Below are positions 20,099 through 41,575 of a stretch of 64,000 bases of DNA, piece by piece. The position numbers were made by a program, and so were the translations under genes. This DNA is from Anaerolineaceae bacterium (lineage in GTDB: Bacteria; Chloroflexota; Anaerolineae; Anaerolineales; Anaerolineaceae). The notes under the pieces are model-generated. The model had not been told where the DNA came from. It searched no databases and worked only from the letters and a program-made list of their open reading frames with translations. Where the stretch lies: NCBI GenBank assembly GCA_012839565.1, contig DUMZ01000019.1, forward strand, positions 62,001 through 126,000, in the 5' to 3' direction. Within the stretch, counting starts at the first letter, position 1; every line of letters starts with the position of its first letter.

Positions 20099-20437
20099 CT
20101 ACATGCTAATGACTGAATAGCCCTGCTCGATGTAAGGACGTACGCCAGCGTGACCGGTCATGTCGTTCAGCATGGGCAAACCGGTAGCCAGGTTTTGCTC
20201 GTACACGCCCAAAGTATGCGAACAAGCCAGACAAATGCCCGCGATCAGTCCCTTTTCAAGCGCTTGTTTAAAGAACTTGTTGCCTTCTTCAGCAAGCACA
20301 GCAGGCAACTTAACCGATGCGCCTTCAAAGATAATCTTCACTTCAGCACCCGCCTCAGCAAGATCCAGCGCGTTGAGCAAAATGTGTTGGAAACACATCT
20401 TCTCGCCCGTCATGGCATAAAACAATACTTTTTGCAT
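20099..20437 (-). CDS. DsrE-family protein
   Basis: A protein of 112 residues with the DsrE/DsrF-like alpha/beta fold: VLFYAMTG start, KIIFEG strand and the Cys pair in GICLACSHTLG, where sulfur-carrier members hold their active Cys. GGAGG precedes the ATG by six bases. It may take part in persulfide handling or be a small redox or regulatory protein. No sulfur-metabolism genes adjoin it, so the role remains open. Confidence 0.8.
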   Translation of the reverse strand: MQKVLFYAMTGEKMCFQHILLNALDLAEAGAEVKIIFEGASVKLPAVLAEEGNKFFKQALEKGLIAGICLACSHTLGVYEQNLATGLPMLNDMTGHAGVRPYIEQGYSVISM

Positions 20438-20563
20438 CTTAATCCTCCGGGTTATTGATGGCCTTATTATAAGGTAGCTGGCTGGTTTTGTTCAAAAAGC
20501 TGAACAGGGTTTATCGCGCCTTGTCGTACAAGTTTTATGGTCATTTTAATAGGCTCAATTTTT

Positions 20564-20592
20564 CAGCCGATTGCCCGTTTGCAACTCTGATG
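20564..20592 (+). repeat. 29-bp direct repeat, left copy
   Basis: This 29-base segment starting CAGCCGATTGCCCG and ending CTCTGATG recurs exactly, in the same orientation, at 24257-24285. The two copies bracket an AT-rich block of about 3.7 kb with unusual gene content. Confidence 0.85.
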
Positions 20593-20632
20593 GTAGCATT
20601 TTTTCTCAAATCAGGATATACGTTACAATTAA

Positions 20633-20980
20633 GAAGGCAATGGACAAATACAGATTGGAACTGCACGTTTGCTTGAGCAAGCAAGATATGTCAAAAAAGG
20701 TGATAGTTACACGATTATGAATCTATTGAATGAATCTAAAGCGGTTAAATACATCGCAGGATATCTCCATCTAATTTCTGACATACTAAACCAGAATACT
20801 AATTTCGCATCCTTAGACGTAGAAGACCAAAACAGGTTAATTCTAATAAATTACAATCAAGGAGTGGAAATGACGTTAGCGTCCCTTAATGTTGGTTCAG
20901 TATACAATCTGATTAACGAATCTAGTTATGACAACCAAACACTAGATTCCTATCGAAGATGGAAAGGAGAAATAAGGTGA
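20633..20980 (+). pseudogene. Truncated lysozyme/transglycosylase-like C-terminal remnant
   Basis: The open frame starts just after a stop at 20630 and has no convincing start before conserved-looking sequence GNGQIQIGTARLLEQA, which resembles the GxGQIQ(I/V)xTA substrate-groove motif of lytic transglycosylase/lysozyme folds. It continues through AGYLHLISDIL and a stretch typical of such C-terminal helices, to a TGA at 20978-20980 that overlaps the GTG start of the next gene. TTG 20669 or ATG 20717 could start a short product. The family call is an inference from a short motif; the missing N-terminal half argues for a decayed gene. Confidence 0.45.
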
Positions 20981-21597
20981 AGAAACTCTTAGCAACACTT
21001 TTTTGCCTCCTTTTTTTGGTTGGTGCTTGTAATGTCCACAGAGAAATATATACTGAAAATGATGTTTCGGTTCTACTTCCTGCTATTCAAATCGAAGAAG
21101 ACCAGTTCCCATTCAAAAAACTATCTGCAGAAGTAGAAAAACTCTTACCTTCAGAGTTAGATTTCAATACAGTAATAATAACAGGTGCATGCGGACAGAT
21201 TGATGATTTTCGCAGTGGAATACTCTATTACAAATATTTCAGAAAAGGCCGAGGTTTATTCTTATGGAAAGAATATCCCATTGAATATACTGTTACGGTC
21301 AATATAAACTCGTTGGAAGCCTCAGTTGAATCTTTGGAACGAAATGAATATTACACGCCCCAACCTTCACGTTTACCGGATGATCAAGAATTTAATGATT
21401 CAATAAAACTTATCAGGCAGAAAATGAAAATTGATTTTCTGGACAAAGATGACTGCAAATATACAATATCGACCTTTGGAGATATTTGGCTCGTTACTCT
21501 ATGGCCTGGAGCGAATAGCGATTTTGAAAAAGCAAAAAAGTTTTGCATAAACACAGAAACTGGCATAATCACTGACCCTTGTGATTATAAAGAATGA
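20977..21597 (+). CDS. Lipoprotein of unknown function (AT-rich island)
   Basis: GTG 20977 is the start: AAAGGAGA lies six bases upstream and the product begins MKKLLATLF with a hydrophobic core and lipobox LVGAC, Cys18. The 206-residue protein shows no family I recognise; mature part is rich in acidic and aromatic residues. The start overlaps the preceding frame by four bases (GTGA), so the two were once coupled. AT-rich, like the rest of the island. Confidence 0.65.
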   Translation: MKKLLATLFCLLFLVGACNVHREIYTENDVSVLLPAIQIEEDQFPFKKLSAEVEKLLPSELDFNTVIITGACGQIDDFRSGILYYKYFRKGRGLFLWKEYPIEYTVTVNINSLEASVESLERNEYYTPQPSRLPDDQEFNDSIKLIRQKMKIDFLDKDDCKYTISTFGDIWLVTLWPGANSDFEKAKKFCINTETGIITDPCDYKE

Positions 21598-21604
21598 TGA
21601 GTAA

Positions 21605-21775
21605 CATTGTTTTGCGAGTGGGAATACATCCATTATTGAAGATAATGAAGGCTATATATGGGTACTGGCAAACGATACCTCTTCAAGGCAAAGCTTAGTG
21701 ATATTGATGGACAGTAATGAGAATATGTTTGACAATTTAAATGAGAAAGGACGAAAACTACTGTACTGGTGCTAG
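21605..21775 (+). pseudogene. 57-codon gene remnant without start
   Basis: An open frame without an initiation codon encodes a protein-like segment (EDNEGYIWVLAND, later LVILMDSNENMFD) ending at TAG 21773. It looks like the end of a beta-propeller or sensor protein, but it is too short to name. It lies in a 244-bp gap otherwise lacking genes and fits a picture of gene decay in the island. Confidence 0.25.
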
Positions 21776-21841
21776 AAGATACTATTTGTGAATGATATAC
21801 AACGAATTAGCACTTTTTATTTGCCATGATTCAGGATAAAA

Positions 21842-22266
21842 ATGCGAGATGCATTACTTCTATTTGAACAACAAAGCATAACCATGTTGCTAGAAAGGGA
21901 CAATCCTGTTTTATAATTGTTGCGTGCACAATACAAACAGGTCATAGAAAAAAGCTCACTATGACCGGCGTCGGATTTTATGTGTATTTTTACTTGGGCA
22001 AACATGTTCAAAGGGTCGATAAAGCCTTTCAAGTGAAAGAGAATTTGGAGATAGAAAATATAAAGGCCTACGTCCCAAGCTTAGAAGCAGGTTTAGGATT
22101 TATCCTTTTTATAAGGGAAGAAGTTTTATCCATGTTGGAAACCTATACATATGATAATGAAGCATTTCCTGAAAATTTAGACAGTGCTGTTCTATCATAT
22201 GGTATTAATGGAAAAAGAAATTTCAACAAGTTGGCCCAACAGCGGGAGATTAATAGAAATGAATAA
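21842..22266 (+). pseudogene. Broken gene of unknown family (internal stop and frameshift)
   Basis: ATG 21842 begins a frame (MRDALLLFEQQSITMLLERD) that meets TAA at 21914 and then reads on in the same frame (LLRAQYKQVIEKS) to TGA 21962. From 21961 a second frame, shifted relative to the first, carries on protein-like sequence (GVGFYVYFYLGKHVQRVDKAF ... ) for 101 codons. The two parts read as one protein of about 140 residues that has suffered at least one nonsense change and one frameshift. The family is not recognised; size and island context resemble immunity-type or orphan proteins, but that is speculation. Confidence 0.45.
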
Positions 22267-22324
22267 GTGTTAATCTGATGGAGAGTAAGAATCTCAAAGA
22301 TAGCATGTGTGAGAAGGATTAAAA

Positions 22325-22966
22325 ATGAAAATAAATAAATGTTTATTTCCAAAAGTAAGCTTGATAGTTCTCATTCTGATATTGATTTTAACAATTCTAT
22401 TGTTAGCTCTGAATTCGCCCCGTACTCACTATACTTATTCTCAGGTAGTTGGTCAAATTAAGCTCGAATATCCCCGAACCTGGTCAATTGCAGATGAACG
22501 ATTAAGCGGGATGACGATTGTTAAATCTCTCCCTTGGGATAAAAAAGTCAGAGGCGTAATTGTCATAACATATGGTAATCTATGCCAAGAGAATGTTGAT
22601 GGCGAAACGTATGTTCAATCAAATTGGAAAAGTCTGACTGAGAGTAACCAACAGGTTCAGGGCTTTTCGATAACAGACATCGCCACTTATAGCATAAAAG
22701 AAAAGGCGGTTTATAGCTATTCTTACAACATTCCCCTTGATAAAATAGCAGAAAGTCGGATAGCTGATTATGCCAGGGATATGTTTCCCAGCTTAAGTCC
22801 AAAACAAACAATCCAAGTAAATGTTGTTGAAAGTGTTGTTAATAAGTCGTATGTAATAGCTGTATTTTTGACAACTTTTTCCGACCAGAAAGCTTATTTT
22901 GAAGCCAAAGAAATAATCGAAAGTATAGACTTAAGCTTGTTCCCTTGCAGGTTACCAGCTGACTGA
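22325..22966 (+). CDS. Membrane-anchored exported protein of unknown function
   Basis: A protein of 213 residues. GAGAAGGA lies about eight bases before the ATG. A strongly hydrophobic segment at about residues 11-29 acts as signal anchor; there is no lipobox. The rest is a soluble alpha/beta-like domain beginning VGQIKLEYPRTWSI, a pattern like PsbP/DUF1795-type domains in which a short strand-turn precedes a conserved P-x-x-W. AT-rich and located inside the repeat-bounded island. The function is unknown. Confidence 0.65.
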   Translation: MKINKCLFPKVSLIVLILILILTILLLALNSPRTHYTYSQVVGQIKLEYPRTWSIADERLSGMTIVKSLPWDKKVRGVIVITYGNLCQENVDGETYVQSNWKSLTESNQQVQGFSITDIATYSIKEKAVYSYSYNIPLDKIAESRIADYARDMFPSLSPKQTIQVNVVESVVNKSYVIAVFLTTFSDQKAYFEAKEIIESIDLSLFPCRLPAD

Positions 22967-23108
22967 TGGCTATGAACTCGAAATGTTATTATGGTTGAAG
23001 TTCCCCGATGGATAGCGAGTGGAATTTTGATTGCTACGTTTACATTGATATCAATCCGATGTTAAATGATAGTGCTAATGTTATATATTGGACATTTGGG
23101 AGATACCT

Positions 23109-24161
23109 ATGATGAAACTACGAATCTGTATAATCTGCTTACTCATAATGGCAATGTTGCTTTCAGGGTGCAAGGAAAAACAAGATTTTAGCACTTGCAA
23201 TGTATCAGAGCTTGATGTATCCAAAATGGTTCTTTTGAATACATATGAATTTCCCTTTCAGCTTTCCAAAGCTTCAATATCACCTTTAGAAAATTTAATA
23301 GCAGTATCTTCAAGAGAACCTTTCTCTTTTACAATCTTTAAGCAAGGTTCAAAAGTAAGCGAGCCACTCTTTACCATGCAAATTGATGGCTTTGTTGAAG
23401 AGTTTATTTGGGATAATGCGGGGCGCAACTTAGCAATACTACCTACTGGTGATGAATTATATATTTATAATTCGGACAATAATGAGTTAAAAGTTTATGT
23501 CTCAGATTCTGGGCCAATAGGCCGATTTAATTGGTCTGAAAACGGGAGCTCTTTTTTAATCAGTTACCTATCTGAAACTTCAGCTTCTTTGTTTGATCTT
23601 ATTGAAACAGATTCTTTTTCCAAATTGGCATCGTACAAACGCCCTGAAAAATTTACGAATGGTGTTTCTCAAATGGCATGGTCTGCAAATGATATCAACG
23701 GGATGGTTGTTTTCTTTTCCTTAAATCGCCTTTTTCAATACGATCTAAAGAACGAACTACTAAGTGAAATATCAGTTGATGTTCTGGATACAGGAAATAA
23801 TGATGTTGAATGGATGGGAAAAGACTCTTTTTTAGTCATAGCCAACAAGGTATATGATCTCGACTTTTACCAACTTAAAAATGGTGAATTACAACATCTC
23901 GGCAAATTACCAAAGGAATCAACGGGTATTTCATTTGACAGTGGTAAGCTCATAAACGATAAAACAGTTTACGCATTTTATATTAGATCAGAAGCTATTT
24001 ATTTGTTTGATTTAGAAAGCTTACAGTTTACAAAGCTGATGAATATTGACTTCACAAATCAAAACCGTGCATATATATTTGATATAGATATGAAGGCGAA
24101 CACCTTGATTATTGTTAATCGGGAAGAAAACAAAATTGATAGTTACAGCCTCCTTAATTGA
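23109..24161 (+). CDS. Lipoprotein with beta-propeller-like repeats
   Basis: ATG 23109 is preferred (GGGAG six bases upstream) over an in-frame TTG 23088. The 350-residue product begins with a signal sequence and lipobox LLSGC, Cys21. The mature part has several repeats of the type hydrophobic strand, W-(S/D)-x-(D/N)-G/N, for instance FIWDNAGRNLAIL, FNWSENGSSFLIS, MAWSANDIN and VEWMGKDSFLV, typical of WD40/TolB-like propellers. A protein of similar design is encoded at 27107-28306 in the second AT-rich block. The ligand is unknown. Confidence 0.7.
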   Translation: MMKLRICIICLLIMAMLLSGCKEKQDFSTCNVSELDVSKMVLLNTYEFPFQLSKASISPLENLIAVSSREPFSFTIFKQGSKVSEPLFTMQIDGFVEEFIWDNAGRNLAILPTGDELYIYNSDNNELKVYVSDSGPIGRFNWSENGSSFLISYLSETSASLFDLIETDSFSKLASYKRPEKFTNGVSQMAWSANDINGMVVFFSLNRLFQYDLKNELLSEISVDVLDTGNNDVEWMGKDSFLVIANKVYDLDFYQLKNGELQHLGKLPKESTGISFDSGKLINDKTVYAFYIRSEAIYLFDLESLQFTKLMNIDFTNQNRAYIFDIDMKANTLIIVNREENKIDSYSLLN

Positions 24162-24256
24162 ACTTGCTTTCCGTTACAAAGCCAAATAGCCACAGGTACC
24201 CGAAGCACAGTATACAGGATCCTTTATAGCTTTTTTTATTTGTCTCAGTATACCCA

Positions 24257-24285
24257 CAGCCGATTGCCCGTTTGCAACTCTGATG
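24257..24285 (+). repeat. 29-bp direct repeat, right copy
   Basis: Exact second copy of the sequence at 20564-20592. Immediately beyond the repeat the sequences diverge. It marks the right border of the AT-rich island, about 75 bp before the next gene. Confidence 0.85.
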
Positions 24286-24359
24286 ATGGCACCGTGTTTT
24301 AATTAATGCCTTGTCGCAGTGCTTTTTTGAGTTGTGCTAAACTTTAAAAACATCAGGAA

Positions 24360-24851
24360 ATGAGGTTGCGAAGCATGAAATCACTTTATATCCAGCAAAA
24401 ATTTTTCAAAATCCTGGACCACTATCCCATCACCGATGAGAACGGACAAACCATCTATCAGGTTGACCAGGAGTTCAACCCTATCGGCCATACCGTTCAT
24501 GTTTCAGACCCCAACGGGAATCACCTTTTTACTGTGGACAGGGTTGTGCTGACCTTACTGCCAAAATTCATGGTCAGGTTTGCCAACGGGAAGGAAATCA
24601 GCATCCAAAGTAACTTCAGCTTACTTCACCGGGATATTGACATTGATCCGGAACATTTAGGGCTTAATGTGATGGGTGACTTTTGGGGACATGAATATAC
24701 CCTTACCCAACGCGGAAACACCGTTGGCAGCATTTCCAAAGAATGGCTGTCTCTGACTGACAATTATCGGCTGGATATTTTTGATGAGACCTTGCAGGAT
24801 CTCTTTGTTGCCGTGGTCATTGCCATTGACTGCTTACTTGACGAATCCTGA
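24360..24851 (+). CDS. LURP-one-related (LOR/YxjI-like) protein
   Basis: 163 residues from ATG 24360, or 158 from ATG 24375; ribosome sites do not decide between them. The sequence has the LOR/tubby-like barrel pattern: LYIQQKFF, YQVDQEFNPIGHTVHVSD with paired strands, NHLFTVDRV, and a terminal hydrophobic helix AVVIAIDCLLDE that usually threads the barrel. Bacterial members are small soluble or membrane-associated proteins related to phospholipid scramblases, with no settled function. Base composition is normal again here, in contrast with the island on the left. Confidence 0.75.
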   Translation: MRLRSMKSLYIQQKFFKILDHYPITDENGQTIYQVDQEFNPIGHTVHVSDPNGNHLFTVDRVVLTLLPKFMVRFANGKEISIQSNFSLLHRDIDIDPEHLGLNVMGDFWGHEYTLTQRGNTVGSISKEWLSLTDNYRLDIFDETLQDLFVAVVIAIDCLLDES

Positions 24852-27106: not shown

Positions 27107-28306
27107 TCAATTCATAAAATCAATTTTCCTGAAGAACAGCGGCGCGGGAAATGCAGAACGGTTTATTTCCGTGATCAACCGACTTTCAAGCTTGCCATCA
27201 GCAAGATATAGTCCGTACAGATTCAAAGTCTCGGGATCAATGTAAGTCATATATGGCCAATTTGAGATATCTTTTTGAATTGTAGAGCAAGCTTCTTCAT
27301 TAATTAAGTTATCAGCTTGTTCATCAACTGCGTACTTTTCACCTGTTTTTAAGTCAATTAGGTAATCATGACCATCTGAAACAGAAAAATAATAACGCGT
27401 CTGGGTATGATTATCCCACCCAATATAAAAATCTTCTGCATAATAAATTTCTTCCCATGAAAGCGATTCGTCTTCTTCCGCGACAGAATAAACGCTTGAT
27501 TTTCCTTCAGATGACCTTGTAAACAAAGATGGATACATATCTCCTTCAAACCAATTCAAGTCAAGCAATTTCCAGGTTTTTTGCAGTTCAGGCATTACAG
27601 GCAACTCATTAATTTCGCCTGTTGTAAGATCAAAAATTTTTGGGATGTCAAGCTCGGTGAATGCGAAATGTTCTCCGTTTGGTGACCAGGCAAATTGGCC
27701 ATACTGACCCATAAATGCGAATTTCTCTTCACCTGTGTTTACATCTATCACATAATGGAAATGCCCACTCGCTCCATCCTGGTTTCCTAAATAGGCGTAG
27801 TGTAAATAACGGCCATCTGGCGACCAATCCAAACCATCTCTTATAAAACTGCCCCTATAACATTCCCCCCCATTAATCATTATTATGTGCTTATTAGGAT
27901 GCACCTTGCTGATTTGTATCGCATTGCTTCCATCAGGTTCCATAATCCAAACACTTGTTTCCCCAGGTAAATTTTCTTCTCGTTCAAGGTCAACTGAATT
28001 GGACTTTACATAAGCAATTAACGAATTATCTGGCGACCAGGTCGCATCCAGGTAATTATTTTCCTCATCGCCTAATAACAAGGTGAATGTTTGGCTGCGC
28101 GTGTTATAAAGTCCGATTCTATCTTTTCCTTTTTTCGAACACCAGAAATACGGATCATAAGTTTCGGTAATTGAAACCAAAATATTGTCAGTATTGAATG
28201 CATTTGTGTCTTTTTCGCCCTGCGAAACACATGAACTCAATACGACAATTAGCGCCATTAAGCAGAATAGCAATTTGTACTTGTTCGATTTTTGGAAACA
28301 ATTCAT
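27107..28306 (-). CDS. Lipoprotein with TolB/WD40-like beta-propeller
   Basis: ATG 28306 is chosen (AAGGAAGG upstream); the longer frame to 28348 overlaps the neighbouring gene. The 399-residue product has a signal sequence and lipobox LSSC, Cys26. Repeats such as ATWSPDNSLIAYV, LDWSPDGRYLHYA and FAWSPNGEHFAF are the W-S-P-D/N-G blades of a TolB-type propeller. It is AT-rich like the island at 20.6-24.3 kb and resembles the propeller lipoprotein encoded there. Likely surface exposed; ligand unknown. Confidence 0.78.
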   Translation of the reverse strand: MNCFQKSNKYKLLFCLMALIVVLSSCVSQGEKDTNAFNTDNILVSITETYDPYFWCSKKGKDRIGLYNTRSQTFTLLLGDEENNYLDATWSPDNSLIAYVKSNSVDLEREENLPGETSVWIMEPDGSNAIQISKVHPNKHIIMINGGECYRGSFIRDGLDWSPDGRYLHYAYLGNQDGASGHFHYVIDVNTGEEKFAFMGQYGQFAWSPNGEHFAFTELDIPKIFDLTTGEINELPVMPELQKTWKLLDLNWFEGDMYPSLFTRSSEGKSSVYSVAEEDESLSWEEIYYAEDFYIGWDNHTQTRYYFSVSDGHDYLIDLKTGEKYAVDEQADNLINEEACSTIQKDISNWPYMTYIDPETLNLYGLYLADGKLESRLITEINRSAFPAPLFFRKIDFMN

Positions 28307-28344
28307 TTTAGCCTTCCTTTTTATTGCAAACGATACTGAAATCA

Positions 28345-28914
28345 TCATCTTTCAGGTAAGATGATGACATCCAGGTAAGCTAACAGCGGTTTTGTTTTAT
28401 TTCCAGCTTCATCAAGCAGATATCCTTTCGATACAATTCTTACTGATGTAGCTTCCTTGATAAATTCTGATGGAATCACCATGATGCCCCCTGTCACGAG
28501 CTCAGACAAGGCAGGAACCGGCTTCACAATATATTCTTCCCGCAGATAGTTTACATGATTGTCAATAACAACCCATTCACAGCTGTCCTGCATAAAAATA
28601 TAGAACTTTTCAGTTTCCTTCAGGTCAAAAATAATTGGCGAAGTAAAACCAGTTAATATAACATCAAACAATAACTCATCACTAGCATAAAGGTGGGTCT
28701 TTTGTCCATTTACATAATCAACTGTTATCGTTTTATTGATGTCATCTTTGGCGGTCATCCCGACTTTTTCCAAAAATAGAGTTTCCTTGTTACACGCTGT
28801 TTTTTGCTGGCAAGCAGTGAAACAAAACAGAAAACCAAACAGAAATAATCCAACATATACTAACAGAATCATTTTAAAAGCGGGTAATCGTTTAGGTGGG
28901 TTTTTGTAATCCAT
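28345..28914 (-). CDS. Putative lipoprotein of unknown function
   Basis: ATG 28914 is taken as start (AGGAT seven bases upstream), giving 189 residues. A hydrophobic segment at about residues 15-32 ends in CFTAC, a plausible lipobox. The mature part contains short beta-like strands (ITVDYVNGQKTHLYA) without a recognised family. It is 39 bp upstream of the propeller lipoprotein and likely co-transcribed. AT-rich. In the 210 bp upstream, only a degenerate 34-codon frame is seen. Confidence 0.6.
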   Translation of the reverse strand: MDYKNPPKRLPAFKMILLVYVGLFLFGFLFCFTACQQKTACNKETLFLEKVGMTAKDDINKTITVDYVNGQKTHLYASDELLFDVILTGFTSPIIFDLKETEKFYIFMQDSCEWVVIDNHVNYLREEYIVKPVPALSELVTGGIMVIPSEFIKEATSVRIVSKGYLLDEAGNKTKPLLAYLDVIILPER

Positions 28915-29124
28915 TTTTCTATCCTGTCTGCTCAAAAATTTATCTAAGCCAGCATTTAAAGCTAATCAGATTCCAGTGCGTGGGTTTATTCCTTAGGCAA
29001 ATCATGCTCAACCCATGCTATTACACATTGATTTGATGGGAAGCCACCAATTATTTTATAAGCACGTACAAGCAGTATCTTTTTAACCACTGTGTTTTTT
29101 CTTTGCCATATACTGGTGCAAGCA

Positions 29125-29619
29125 CTAATTATCAGTTTGAGGTGTTAGTGTTTTTAGTTGTTCAGGTGTGTAATAACCGCAATCCCAAATATCAAGGTAA
29201 CGCAGATATACACAATTTAGTCCATGTTCATTATAGTCAAAACAGAGACTATATGGTTCATTCGCAATAATTGTTTTACTGGGTTGCGTTAGATAGACGT
29301 AATCACTTATTGGCCCATCTGGAACGTGGTTAATATAATTTGGAATTAACTCCTCCAATTCCTTTGGAGGCTCTAAATGGTCATCCAAATAAGCTTCAAT
29401 TGCTGAAATTAAAATATTACCAGTCTCAATCCCTTTATTGATATAGAAAGCCTCAATATCGTGGTTTCCAACCGATGTGGCTTTATACGATTCGTCAATG
29501 TAAAACACCGGTGTTTCAGTTATTGCTATAGAACTTGTTTCGATTTGCTTTGACGAGCAGGCTGTTAGCAAAAACGACAAGCCTATCAACATAAGCAGTG
29601 TTAATCGTTTTTTTCGCAT
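29125..29619 (-). CDS. Small lipoprotein of unknown function
   Basis: A protein of 164 residues with MRKKRLTLL start, hydrophobic core and lipobox LLTAC, Cys21. A segment around residues 65-110 (GNILISAIEAYLDDHLEPPKELEELIPNY, interrupted here for length) is reminiscent of the C-terminal part of pseudopilin-like proteins, where a helix is followed by a PxxLxxLxPxY motif. The call stays open. It is the outermost of three minus-strand AT-rich lipoprotein genes next to the mevalonate module. Confidence 0.65.
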   Translation of the reverse strand: MRKKRLTLLMLIGLSFLLTACSSKQIETSSIAITETPVFYIDESYKATSVGNHDIEAFYINKGIETGNILISAIEAYLDDHLEPPKELEELIPNYINHVPDGPISDYVYLTQPSKTIIANEPYSLCFDYNEHGLNCVYLRYLDIWDCGYYTPEQLKTLTPQTDN

Positions 29620-29700
29620 GATTACTTCATTACTTTCGAGACCGTTTCTATGCCACCTGTTCGAAATGATATTTATCCTATCCTGACTCTATTTTATCAA

Positions 29701-39314: not shown

Positions 39315-40619
39315 ATGAAAGAGAAACTTAAATCAAATCTAAGAACAGAAAACGACAGAGCATGGTATCGGTTTTTTGAAAATCGAGACTTTTTTGAGGT
39401 CTTAACTTCAAACAAAGAAATAATCGTGAGTTCCACTGATCTGAAAAAGTATGGAGGTAGAGAACCTCGTTTGATGGCAAAAATAGACACTCGTGAAGAG
39501 TTGCCTAGCATTTTTAAAAAATTTAACATTTCACTTTTGCCTATTCAAAACAAACAATATTTATTGTTCATTGATGATTCAAAAAATCTCTTCTATGATT
39601 TTCCCATCTTAAAAACTCCTGTTATTACTAAATTTCCAAATGCGACGATTTCCAATCTCGAAACTTTACAGGAACGACATATTTCATCTGAATCAAAAGC
39701 CCTTGATTTTGCCTATATTGCTTCTATTTTAAAAACATTTACTGGTGAAGATAATTTATGGTTAACGATTAGAGGACGCCAATATTCAAGTAATTTTGAT
39801 TTGATAATACCCGCCTTGAACCGAACCCAAACTATATCCAGCACACAGATAGAGGTTGATGCTGGATATGAGAGCAACGATGCAATTTATTTGATTGAGG
39901 CGAAAATGGGGAATCGAACCAACTTTAATGTTAGGCAACTACTTTTCCCTTATCTTAATTGGTCATCTAAAACTAAAAAACAAGTTGTGCCTGTTTTCTT
40001 TACTTTCTCTAATGGTGTTTATACTATACATGAATTCAAATTTTCCAACATCCTTGGAGATACTAGCATTTTAAGAACTTCTTCTTATGCCTTAGCAGAC
40101 AGCAAAATAACTCTCCAAAACCTAATGGATATTTTCAAGCAATGTCCTGAAAGTGATATCTATAATCCCCAAGTCCCATTTCCACAAGCCAATGATATAA
40201 ACAAAGTTATTGATACCGTGACTGTCATTGATCAGGGTATTAATAGCAAAGTTGAACTGGCAAGTCACTTTGAGTTTGACCCAAGACAAGCTGATTACTA
40301 CGCCAATGCGGCATTATTTTTAGGTTTCATCAAACGAGGCGACGAAGGTTTTGAGCTAACAAAGATTGGGACAGAACTCACCCAAGAAACTTCCAGAGCC
40401 CAACGCGTCTTGAAGATTTTTAACCGCATGTCCAAAATTCAGGTCTTACGGCCTGTAATCCAACAATTTTTGTCAAATGGGATGGATGAGCAAGCCATTG
40501 ATTACAATGCCTTTATCAAAAATTTAGAGAAATACTATAGTTTAAGAAACACGACCCCTCGACGACGTATTAGTACAGTAAAGACATGGCTAATTTGGAT
40601 AAAAGAGGGGTTATCATGA
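39315..40619 (+). CDS. Type II restriction endonuclease (probable)
   Basis: A protein of 434 residues encoded directly before a DNA adenine methylase with an ATGA overlap. A PD-(D/E)xK nuclease core is visible: IEVDAGYE (Asp near residue 181), then IYLIEAKMG (Glu about 195, Lys about 197), followed by a Q-x-x-x-x-P-Y helix. The C-terminal third looks like a winged-helix DNA-binding region (FIKRGDEGFELTKIGTEL). The recognition site cannot be told from sequence; related D12-class partners often recognise GATC or GATATC. Strongly AT-rich compared with its flanks, so probably acquired. Confidence 0.8.
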   Translation: MKEKLKSNLRTENDRAWYRFFENRDFFEVLTSNKEIIVSSTDLKKYGGREPRLMAKIDTREELPSIFKKFNISLLPIQNKQYLLFIDDSKNLFYDFPILKTPVITKFPNATISNLETLQERHISSESKALDFAYIASILKTFTGEDNLWLTIRGRQYSSNFDLIIPALNRTQTISSTQIEVDAGYESNDAIYLIEAKMGNRTNFNVRQLLFPYLNWSSKTKKQVVPVFFTFSNGVYTIHEFKFSNILGDTSILRTSSYALADSKITLQNLMDIFKQCPESDIYNPQVPFPQANDINKVIDTVTVIDQGINSKVELASHFEFDPRQADYYANAALFLGFIKRGDEGFELTKIGTELTQETSRAQRVLKIFNRMSKIQVLRPVIQQFLSNGMDEQAIDYNAFIKNLEKYYSLRNTTPRRRISTVKTWLIWIKEGLS

Positions 40620-41575
40620 CCGTTTTGCAGGAAGTTAAATACGAAAGGCGTTTCTCTTTTTTTAGAAATGATAATGCTTTCCCAATCTTAAAGTGGGCAG
40701 GCGGGAAACGCCAATTGTTACCTGTTATTCACAAGAACTTACCGTCTGAGATTCATAAAGGTGAAATAACAACTTATATTGAACCGTTTTTTGGCGGTGG
40801 CGCGGTCTTTTTTTCACTCACAAACAACTTTACGTTTTTATCAAAAACAATTTTAGATATCAATAAAGCGCTTATGTTTTTTTATAAAAACCTTCGTGAC
40901 AATGTTGAGCCATTAATTGAACTCCTAACAGATATTCAGAAAACATACGACGGTTTAAATGATTCTGAGCGAGAAGAATATTACTATAGTCAAAGATCTA
41001 TATATAACGAAGAAATTAGTTGCATTTATTCACAGAACACTATTTTAGACTGGTTGAATCCTTCAGCACGACTTCTCTTTTTAAATAAAACCGGCTTCAA
41101 TGGCTTGTATCGGGTAAATTCAAGCGGTGAGTTTAATGTGCCTTTTGGCTCATATAAAAACCCAAAAATTTGTGATGTTTCCAATCTTCGCGCAAGTTCA
41201 AAAGCCTTAGAGCATACAGCAATCGTACATGGGGATTTTGAACTTTCCATTAACGAAATTGATCATAAAAGCTTTGTGTATCTTGATCCGCCTTATCGCC
41301 CACTTTCAACGACATCTAGTTTTAATTCTTATGCTAAGGAATCTTTTGATGACAGTGATCAAATTCGACTTGCTGAATTCTGTAAATCAATAGACGCGAT
41401 TGGCGCGAAGTTCTTACTGAGTAATTCTGACCCTAAAAACATTGATCCTAACGATGACTTTTTCGATAAATTGTATAGGGGTTTTTCAATCAAACGTATC
41501 AATGCTCGCAGAAATATTAATAGCGATGGTAGCGGTCGCGGCATTGTATCAGAATTGCTAATTAAAAATTATTGA
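40616..41575 (+). CDS. DNA adenine methylase, D12 class (Dam/DpnM type)
   Basis: The start is ATG 40616, overlapping the nuclease stop by four bases (ATGA), preceded by AGAGGGG; the ORF could extend to 40586 but that lies inside the nuclease. 319 residues. SAM-binding PILKWAGGKRQLL at the N-terminus, YIEPFFGGGAVFF, and the catalytic DPPY in VYLDPPYRPL mark an N6-adenine methyltransferase of the Dam family. It protects host DNA from the neighbouring nuclease. AT-rich, same origin as its partner. Confidence 0.95.
   Translation: MTVLQEVKYERRFSFFRNDNAFPILKWAGGKRQLLPVIHKNLPSEIHKGEITTYIEPFFGGGAVFFSLTNNFTFLSKTILDINKALMFFYKNLRDNVEPLIELLTDIQKTYDGLNDSEREEYYYSQRSIYNEEISCIYSQNTILDWLNPSARLLFLNKTGFNGLYRVNSSGEFNVPFGSYKNPKICDVSNLRASSKALEHTAIVHGDFELSINEIDHKSFVYLDPPYRPLSTTSSFNSYAKESFDDSDQIRLAEFCKSIDAIGAKFLLSNSDPKNIDPNDDFFDKLYRGFSIKRINARRNINSDGSGRGIVSELLIKNY

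Follow-up and report, generated by a model that had tools for sequence, protein, structure and literature searches.

A putative orphan-immunity island between perfect 29-bp direct repeats at an inversion breakpoint in an Anaerolineaceae genome

Genes and features of the island

The window analysed here is a stretch of 64,000 nucleotides from an Anaerolineaceae bacterium (assembly GCA_012839565.1, contig DUMZ01000019.1, here C19, positions 62,001 to 126,000), whose genome assembly comprises 1,969,548 bases in 20 contigs and is 95.6% complete. Between positions 20564 and 24285 of the window lies an AT-rich island bordered by two exact copies of a 29-bp direct repeat. It contains the remnant of an Rhs-type toxin tip (i1), further open reading frames (ORFs; i2 to i5) and gene fragments, and occupies a breakpoint of an inversion. 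On balance it appears to be a horizontally acquired orphan-immunity island that was inserted as one piece at this breakpoint, with the repeat most likely its footprint.

20564..20592, + strand: direct repeat copy 1, exact 29-bp match to copy 2
20633..20980, + strand: i1, remnant of the C-terminal part of an Rhs-type toxin tip (lytic transglycosylase-like) that lacks the N-terminal half
20977..21597, + strand: i2, 206-amino acid lipoprotein, its start overlapping the i1 stop by 4 bases
21629..21778, + strand: propeller-type gene fragment with a weak Reg_prop match (E = 0.014, under the curated cut-off)
21961..22266, + strand: i3, 101-amino acid ORF
22325..22966, + strand: i4, membrane-anchored 213-amino acid protein with a PsbP/DcrB/Tsi3-like predicted fold
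23000..23112 (limits approximate), + strand: short C-terminal gene fragment, seen by its frame
23112..24161, + strand: i5, lipoprotein with weak beta-propeller (eIF2A/WD40-type) matches under curated cut-offs
24257..24285, + strand: direct repeat copy 2, exact 29-bp match to copy 1

The ORFs i1 to i5 are all co-directional, running from left to right. An earlier, sequence-only reading of this DNA had placed broken genes and no recombinase between the repeats, and both points hold: i1 is truncated, two short fragments lie between the ORFs, and neither the ORF list nor family searches revealed a recombinase gene inside the island. Family searches found no transposase, and neither a terminal inverted repeat nor a repeated intergenic motif was found. 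The island proteins gave no match to anti-phage defence families. Phage or plasmid cargo was considered and rejected, as i2, i5 and the i4 alignment had no matches in viral contigs, i2 had none in phages and i4 none in plasmids.

The interior of the island (3,664 bp) has a G+C content of 35.1%, the outer intergenic stretches have 38.9% and 39.3%, and the repeat itself has 55.2%. The proposal that the repeats mark the points of compositional change is right only approximately; composition shifts near them, but the actual change falls at the starts of the flanking genes. The tetranucleotide distance between the island and the window core is 0.541, compared with 0.135 to 0.196 for 19 core segments. 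Homologues of the island proteins were sought in 60 related genomes, where i2 and i5 had no relative, i4 had one and i1 had a clear relative in one. The island is thus likely to be acquired and foreign, in keeping with the inserted segment that had been proposed.

Remnant toxin tip and putative immunity genes

The open frame of i1 (20633-20977) crosses no stop. It aligns with the end of a 262-amino acid ORF in a related genome (G021:C16; 39% identity over 116 alignment columns). At its start this longer ORF has the tail of an Rhs core (TIGR03696, E = 3.8e-5 for the ORF, with a genome-level match above the cut-off), and it also carries an SLT transglycosylase domain (PF01464, E = 5.2e-5). The sequence of i1 begins halfway through the tip, some 40 bp inward of repeat copy 1, and the toxin is therefore presumed dead.

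In G021 the tip is followed by a lipoprotein of 207 amino acids, in the same position as i2 and with the same 4-base overlap. i2 is therefore a probable immunity protein on the strength of its position rather than of proven homology, because the similarity between the two lipoproteins is weak. The structure model of i2 was too poor to use (pLDDT 40.9).

The single relative of i4 is 44% identical and lies in a similar AT-rich pocket of Anaerolineaceae bacterium UBA1415 (G008), from which the island has a tetranucleotide distance of 0.23. The model of i4 (pLDDT 69.4) has its best Foldseek matches in the PsbP family, with lower-ranked matches to the immunity protein Tsi3 (E = 8.7e-4), DcrB and EagT6. 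Fusions of PsbP/MOG1 domains to an immunity family are on record (PMC3482391). The similarity of i3 to the gene preceding the i4 homologue in G008 was not significant, and i3 was rejected as its relative. At the G008 locus (L052; C27, 2544-8252) the i4 relative is accompanied by a PsbP-type lipoprotein, both of them in or beside the AT-rich pocket, and a gene near the pocket shows weak matches to terminase large subunits.

The island is probably derived from the Rhs toxin/immunity gene pool. Neither this remnant with its likely immunity genes nor the inversion described below had been part of the sequence-only reading.

The 29-bp direct repeat

The perfect repeat is exactly where it had been reported. 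Ungapped extension of the pair gives 33 identical positions of 35, and none of 100 dinucleotide shuffles of the window produced such a match. In the whole assembly, searched with up to three mismatches, the 29-mer has just its two known copies. Within-genome repeats were scanned over 516 kb (26% of the genome; exact repeats of at least 18 bp with copies 0.1 to 15 kb apart), where the next best match to the 29-mer had nine mismatches; among the matches listed, the 29-bp pair was the only qualifying exact repeat on the scanned part of C19. A dispersed genomic repeat, the first of the findings that the sequence-only reading had named as refuting it, is ruled out by these counts.

On other contigs, the listed repeats comprise tandem repeats within coding sequence, arrays in intergenic DNA, a small palindrome in dispersed copies and, on contig C9, one pair of about 190 bp. 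The two intergenic copies of this pair are 4,561 bp apart (L069; G000:C9, 13690-18440, G000 being the window's genome), contain a palindrome present also on C7 and enclose a DeoR-like regulator and an 885-amino acid protein (42% G+C). Arrays of an intergenic repeat of about 38 bases, in both orientations, are found at contig ends (L064, G000:C4, 236-2100; L067, G000:C7, 1-650).

Outside the genome, exact scans of the genome_contigs and viral_contigs collections did not find the 29-mer, records close to the window's genome possibly being excluded there. Its best match among the Rhs loci examined had ten mismatches, that is, no similarity. No tRNA was found near the repeat and no Rfam element at it, ruling out either as the site. 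The best resemblance to dif was 9 of 25 positions, a weak test against two dif sites, and the dyad inside the repeat is just 4 bp, judged by eye and at chance level.

These results bear on a special case of the preferred explanation, in which a tyrosine recombinase would have integrated a small cassette in trans, with the 29-mer as its att core, and the island could leave again as a circle of 3.7 kb. In its favour, the direct repeat is perfect and has the size of an att core, no recombinase was found in the segment it encloses, and the genome has five tyrosine-recombinase genes elsewhere, all on other contigs. Without a detectable tRNA, dif likeness or sizeable dyad at the site, and with no second island carrying the same repeat, this version is unlikely. 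Of the origin that had been suggested, the inserted segment is supported, and a target or attachment-site duplication is a candidate source of the repeat. The island edges show no similarity to the other inversion breakpoint. Two tyrosine-recombinase matches lie side by side in opposite orientation at G000:C7:46597-47853.

Insertion site at an inversion breakpoint

The island lies between two divergent host genes:

20099..20437, - strand: left host gene, 85.7% identical in G010; labelled DsrE-like by us, with no Pfam or NCBIfam match
20478..24374, no strand: inversion breakpoint zone, from the conserved upstream bases of the left gene to the start of the right gene, unalignable to G010
24375..24851, + strand: right host gene, LURP-one-related (PF04525, E = 3.8e-12), 73% identical in G010

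G010 is the closest relative. There a LysM-type gene and an RNase Y cluster come after the left gene, with no island between, and the LURP-one gene adjoins a MarR_EPS-like regulator (its upstream neighbour) and sugar genes; the LysM-type, RNase Y and sugar-gene labels are presumptive, being our own reading and not family matches, and the MarR_EPS-like label comes from NCBIfam on the copies in the window's genome. In the latter, the LysM-type and MarR_EPS-like neighbours sit together (C19:about 52.05-52.14 kb) and the two host genes flank the island (C19:82.5-86.4 kb). A single inversion of about 30 to 34 kb accounts for both junctions, which are on one contig.

The old linkage was followed by hand in listings of two markers, a nucleotidyltransferase-type gene and a hydrolase gene. 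It is kept in all 15 relatives that have both on one contig (G001, G002, G005, G007, G008, G010, G011, G013-G017, G020, G022 and G023), close together and in the G010 orientation; in the remaining genomes of the genus the markers are on different contigs or have no listed match. As all 15 keep the other order, it is clear from gene order that the arrangement in the window is derived.

The junction between the dsrE-like and LURP-one genes is thus new in this genome, and relatives cannot supply the empty site with a single repeat copy that the sequence-only reading had proposed to look for. The 29-mer itself could be sought there, and a 26-base part of it is absent from all 200 other genomes of the panel (201 including the window's own); because the junction is new, this absence says nothing about integration. 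If the flanks are joined through a single repeat copy, a divergent intergenic region of 244 bp remains, which is ordinary beside the 276 bp in G010. The two copies are identical at 29 of 29 bases, which limits their divergence to about 10% (95% limit). Should the repeat be a product of insertion, that insertion probably took place after the G010 lineage had split off, because the copies are undiverged while the intergenic DNA of G010 no longer aligns.

No sequence common to the two breakpoints was found, island edges included, so there is no sign of an inversion driven by shared repeats, and that idea was rejected. The same result weakens the idea that the island predates the inversion and was already present in one of the two intergenic regions, where it caused or marked the break. 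The island does sit exactly in one breakpoint zone, and portions of a Helicobacter study report genomic islands at inversion breakpoints (PMC8002640). Island DNA was found neither at either of the two intergenic sites in G010 nor at the dsrE-LysM site in G020, and this order of events appears rather improbable.

A third possibility is that the repeat is a short duplication or an old repeat which by chance flanks what deletions and the inversion have left of a larger Rhs locus. Rhs loci are larger than the island, i1 is cut off close to copy 1, and deletions in Haloquadratum are described, in parts of one report, as often bordered by short repeats (PMC3119063). However, the copies lie within about 40 to 100 bp of both ends of the foreign segment, and the repeat has a higher G+C content (0.552) than its surroundings and no other copy in the genome, making chance flanking doubtful.

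A second AT-rich island and Rhs genes in the genus

A second island lies 3 kb to the right of the first and is absent from G010, which has about 725 bp there:

27107..29688, - strand: second AT-rich island, three co-directional lipoprotein ORFs (27107-28348, 28345-28935 and 29125-29688)

The protein encoded by 28345-28935 has relatives in G019, G027, G021 and G018 (29 to 42% identity). Each of the four is directly downstream of an Rhs core or tip, and that in G027 starts 9 bp after the Rhs ORF, in an array that also holds a tip of the known polymorphic toxin family Tox-REase-7 (PF15649). No match to an Rhs core was found in the window's genome; one is present in 10 of the 29 genomes of the genus. 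The second island supports the orphan-immunity reading of the first.

The G027 locus (L107; C137, 5510-10110) is a tandem Rhs array composed of the Tox-REase-7 tip, another ORF and a long Rhs ORF with an unnamed tip and a lipoprotein. Elsewhere in the window, an AT-rich pair of a type II restriction enzyme and a methyltransferase is located at 39315-41575.

It is very improbable that an assembly error fused an unrelated AT-rich piece into the contig at a common 29-mer. Although 29 is a k-mer size used by some short-read assemblers, a same-type island with no such repeats lies 3 kb away, relatives of i1 and i4 occur within the genus, and the inversion is visible at both junctions on one contig.

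Proposed origin and role

A segment of 3.7 kb would have been taken up from the pool of Rhs polymorphic-toxin genes in the same bacterial group, its cargo being a decayed toxin-tip end, a lipoprotein gene in immunity position and further co-directional genes for membrane proteins or lipoproteins. It may have been inserted in one piece between the two divergent host genes, at the breakpoint of the lineage-specific inversion, most likely leaving the direct repeat behind. The chance that the 29-mer is the footprint of this insertion is about even or somewhat better. With its own toxin dead, the island might serve as a spare defence in which the PsbP-like protein and the lipoproteins that survive bind toxin tips delivered by related bacteria.

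Several observations weigh against this account. i2 and the G021 lipoprotein are only weakly alike (z = 2.3, with 12 of 500 shuffles equally good), and no relative was found for i5 or i3. Target duplications made by transposition are usually shorter than 29 bp, and no integrase gene was found inside the island. At the edges of the second island no repeat over 11 bp was found, so that islands of this kind do not in general carry the repeat. The Rhs-linked position of the 28345-28935 relatives comes from a biased sample, because many of the loci searched (18, then further ones) were selected for Rhs cores.

If the account is correct, a streamlined Anaerolineaceae lineage of about 2 Mb, with no Rhs core of its own, keeps two adjacent blocks of spare immunity-type genes. 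This would indicate toxin warfare among uncultured Chloroflexota and offer concrete toxin-antidote pairs.

Comparison with known systems

Orphan rhs-CT/immunity modules and orphan immunity genes of Salmonella and Serratia, as far as the accounts drawn on go (PMC3967940, PMC10539506), have a displaced C-terminal piece of an Rhs protein with a gene in immunity position behind it, and additional unrelated immunity-like genes. The island resembles them, i1 being a C-terminal tip fragment without a core, but its genome has no Rhs core match, its tip is truncated, its products include lipoproteins and its site is far from any Rhs locus. For one orphan immunity gene, protection has been demonstrated by experiment (PMC10539506).

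Polyimmunity loci (PMC3482391) share short co-directional genes that vary between close relatives; the island differs in its toxin remnant, loose spacing and fragments between genes. Extended loci of this kind are reported there solely in certain proteobacteria, bacteroidetes, firmicutes and actinobacteria. Further systems for comparison, known from excerpts, are an immunity islet of Typhi (PMC7400221) and T7 immunity arrays (PMC9484751). A literature search on Rhs and immunity in Chloroflexi or Anaerolineae returned nothing on such an island, judging by the listed entries, which is not proof that there is none.

Genomic islands with direct-repeat ends, as a class, have the foreign composition and perfect end repeats seen here. 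In contrast, this one is very small, with no integrase inside and no tRNA site found; its ends show no dif likeness by the weak test above, and the terminal inverted repeats and transposase of a transposon were not found.

Recombinase-associated acquired interbacterial defence arrays (rAID), as outlined in parts of PMC12247911, are AT-rich (< 41% G+C) and contain orphan, co-directional genes of about 100 to 350 codons. The island likewise has at least two co-directional genes below 41% G+C, but it has neither the upstream tyrosine recombinase nor the conserved intergenic motifs, and its host does not belong to the Bacteroidales. It is a distant prospect that the island represents a mobile orphan-immunity cassette of Chloroflexota, a recombinase-free counterpart of acquired interbacterial defence arrays with repeats at its borders. 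Such a cassette would circulate among Anaerolineaceae, with a host recombinase acting on the 29-mer to move it, and would shield a non-producer from the Rhs toxins of its relatives. Set beside these systems, the island follows their logic and is interesting, not categorically new; if the account above is correct, it provides one mapped example of such an island within an inversion breakpoint.

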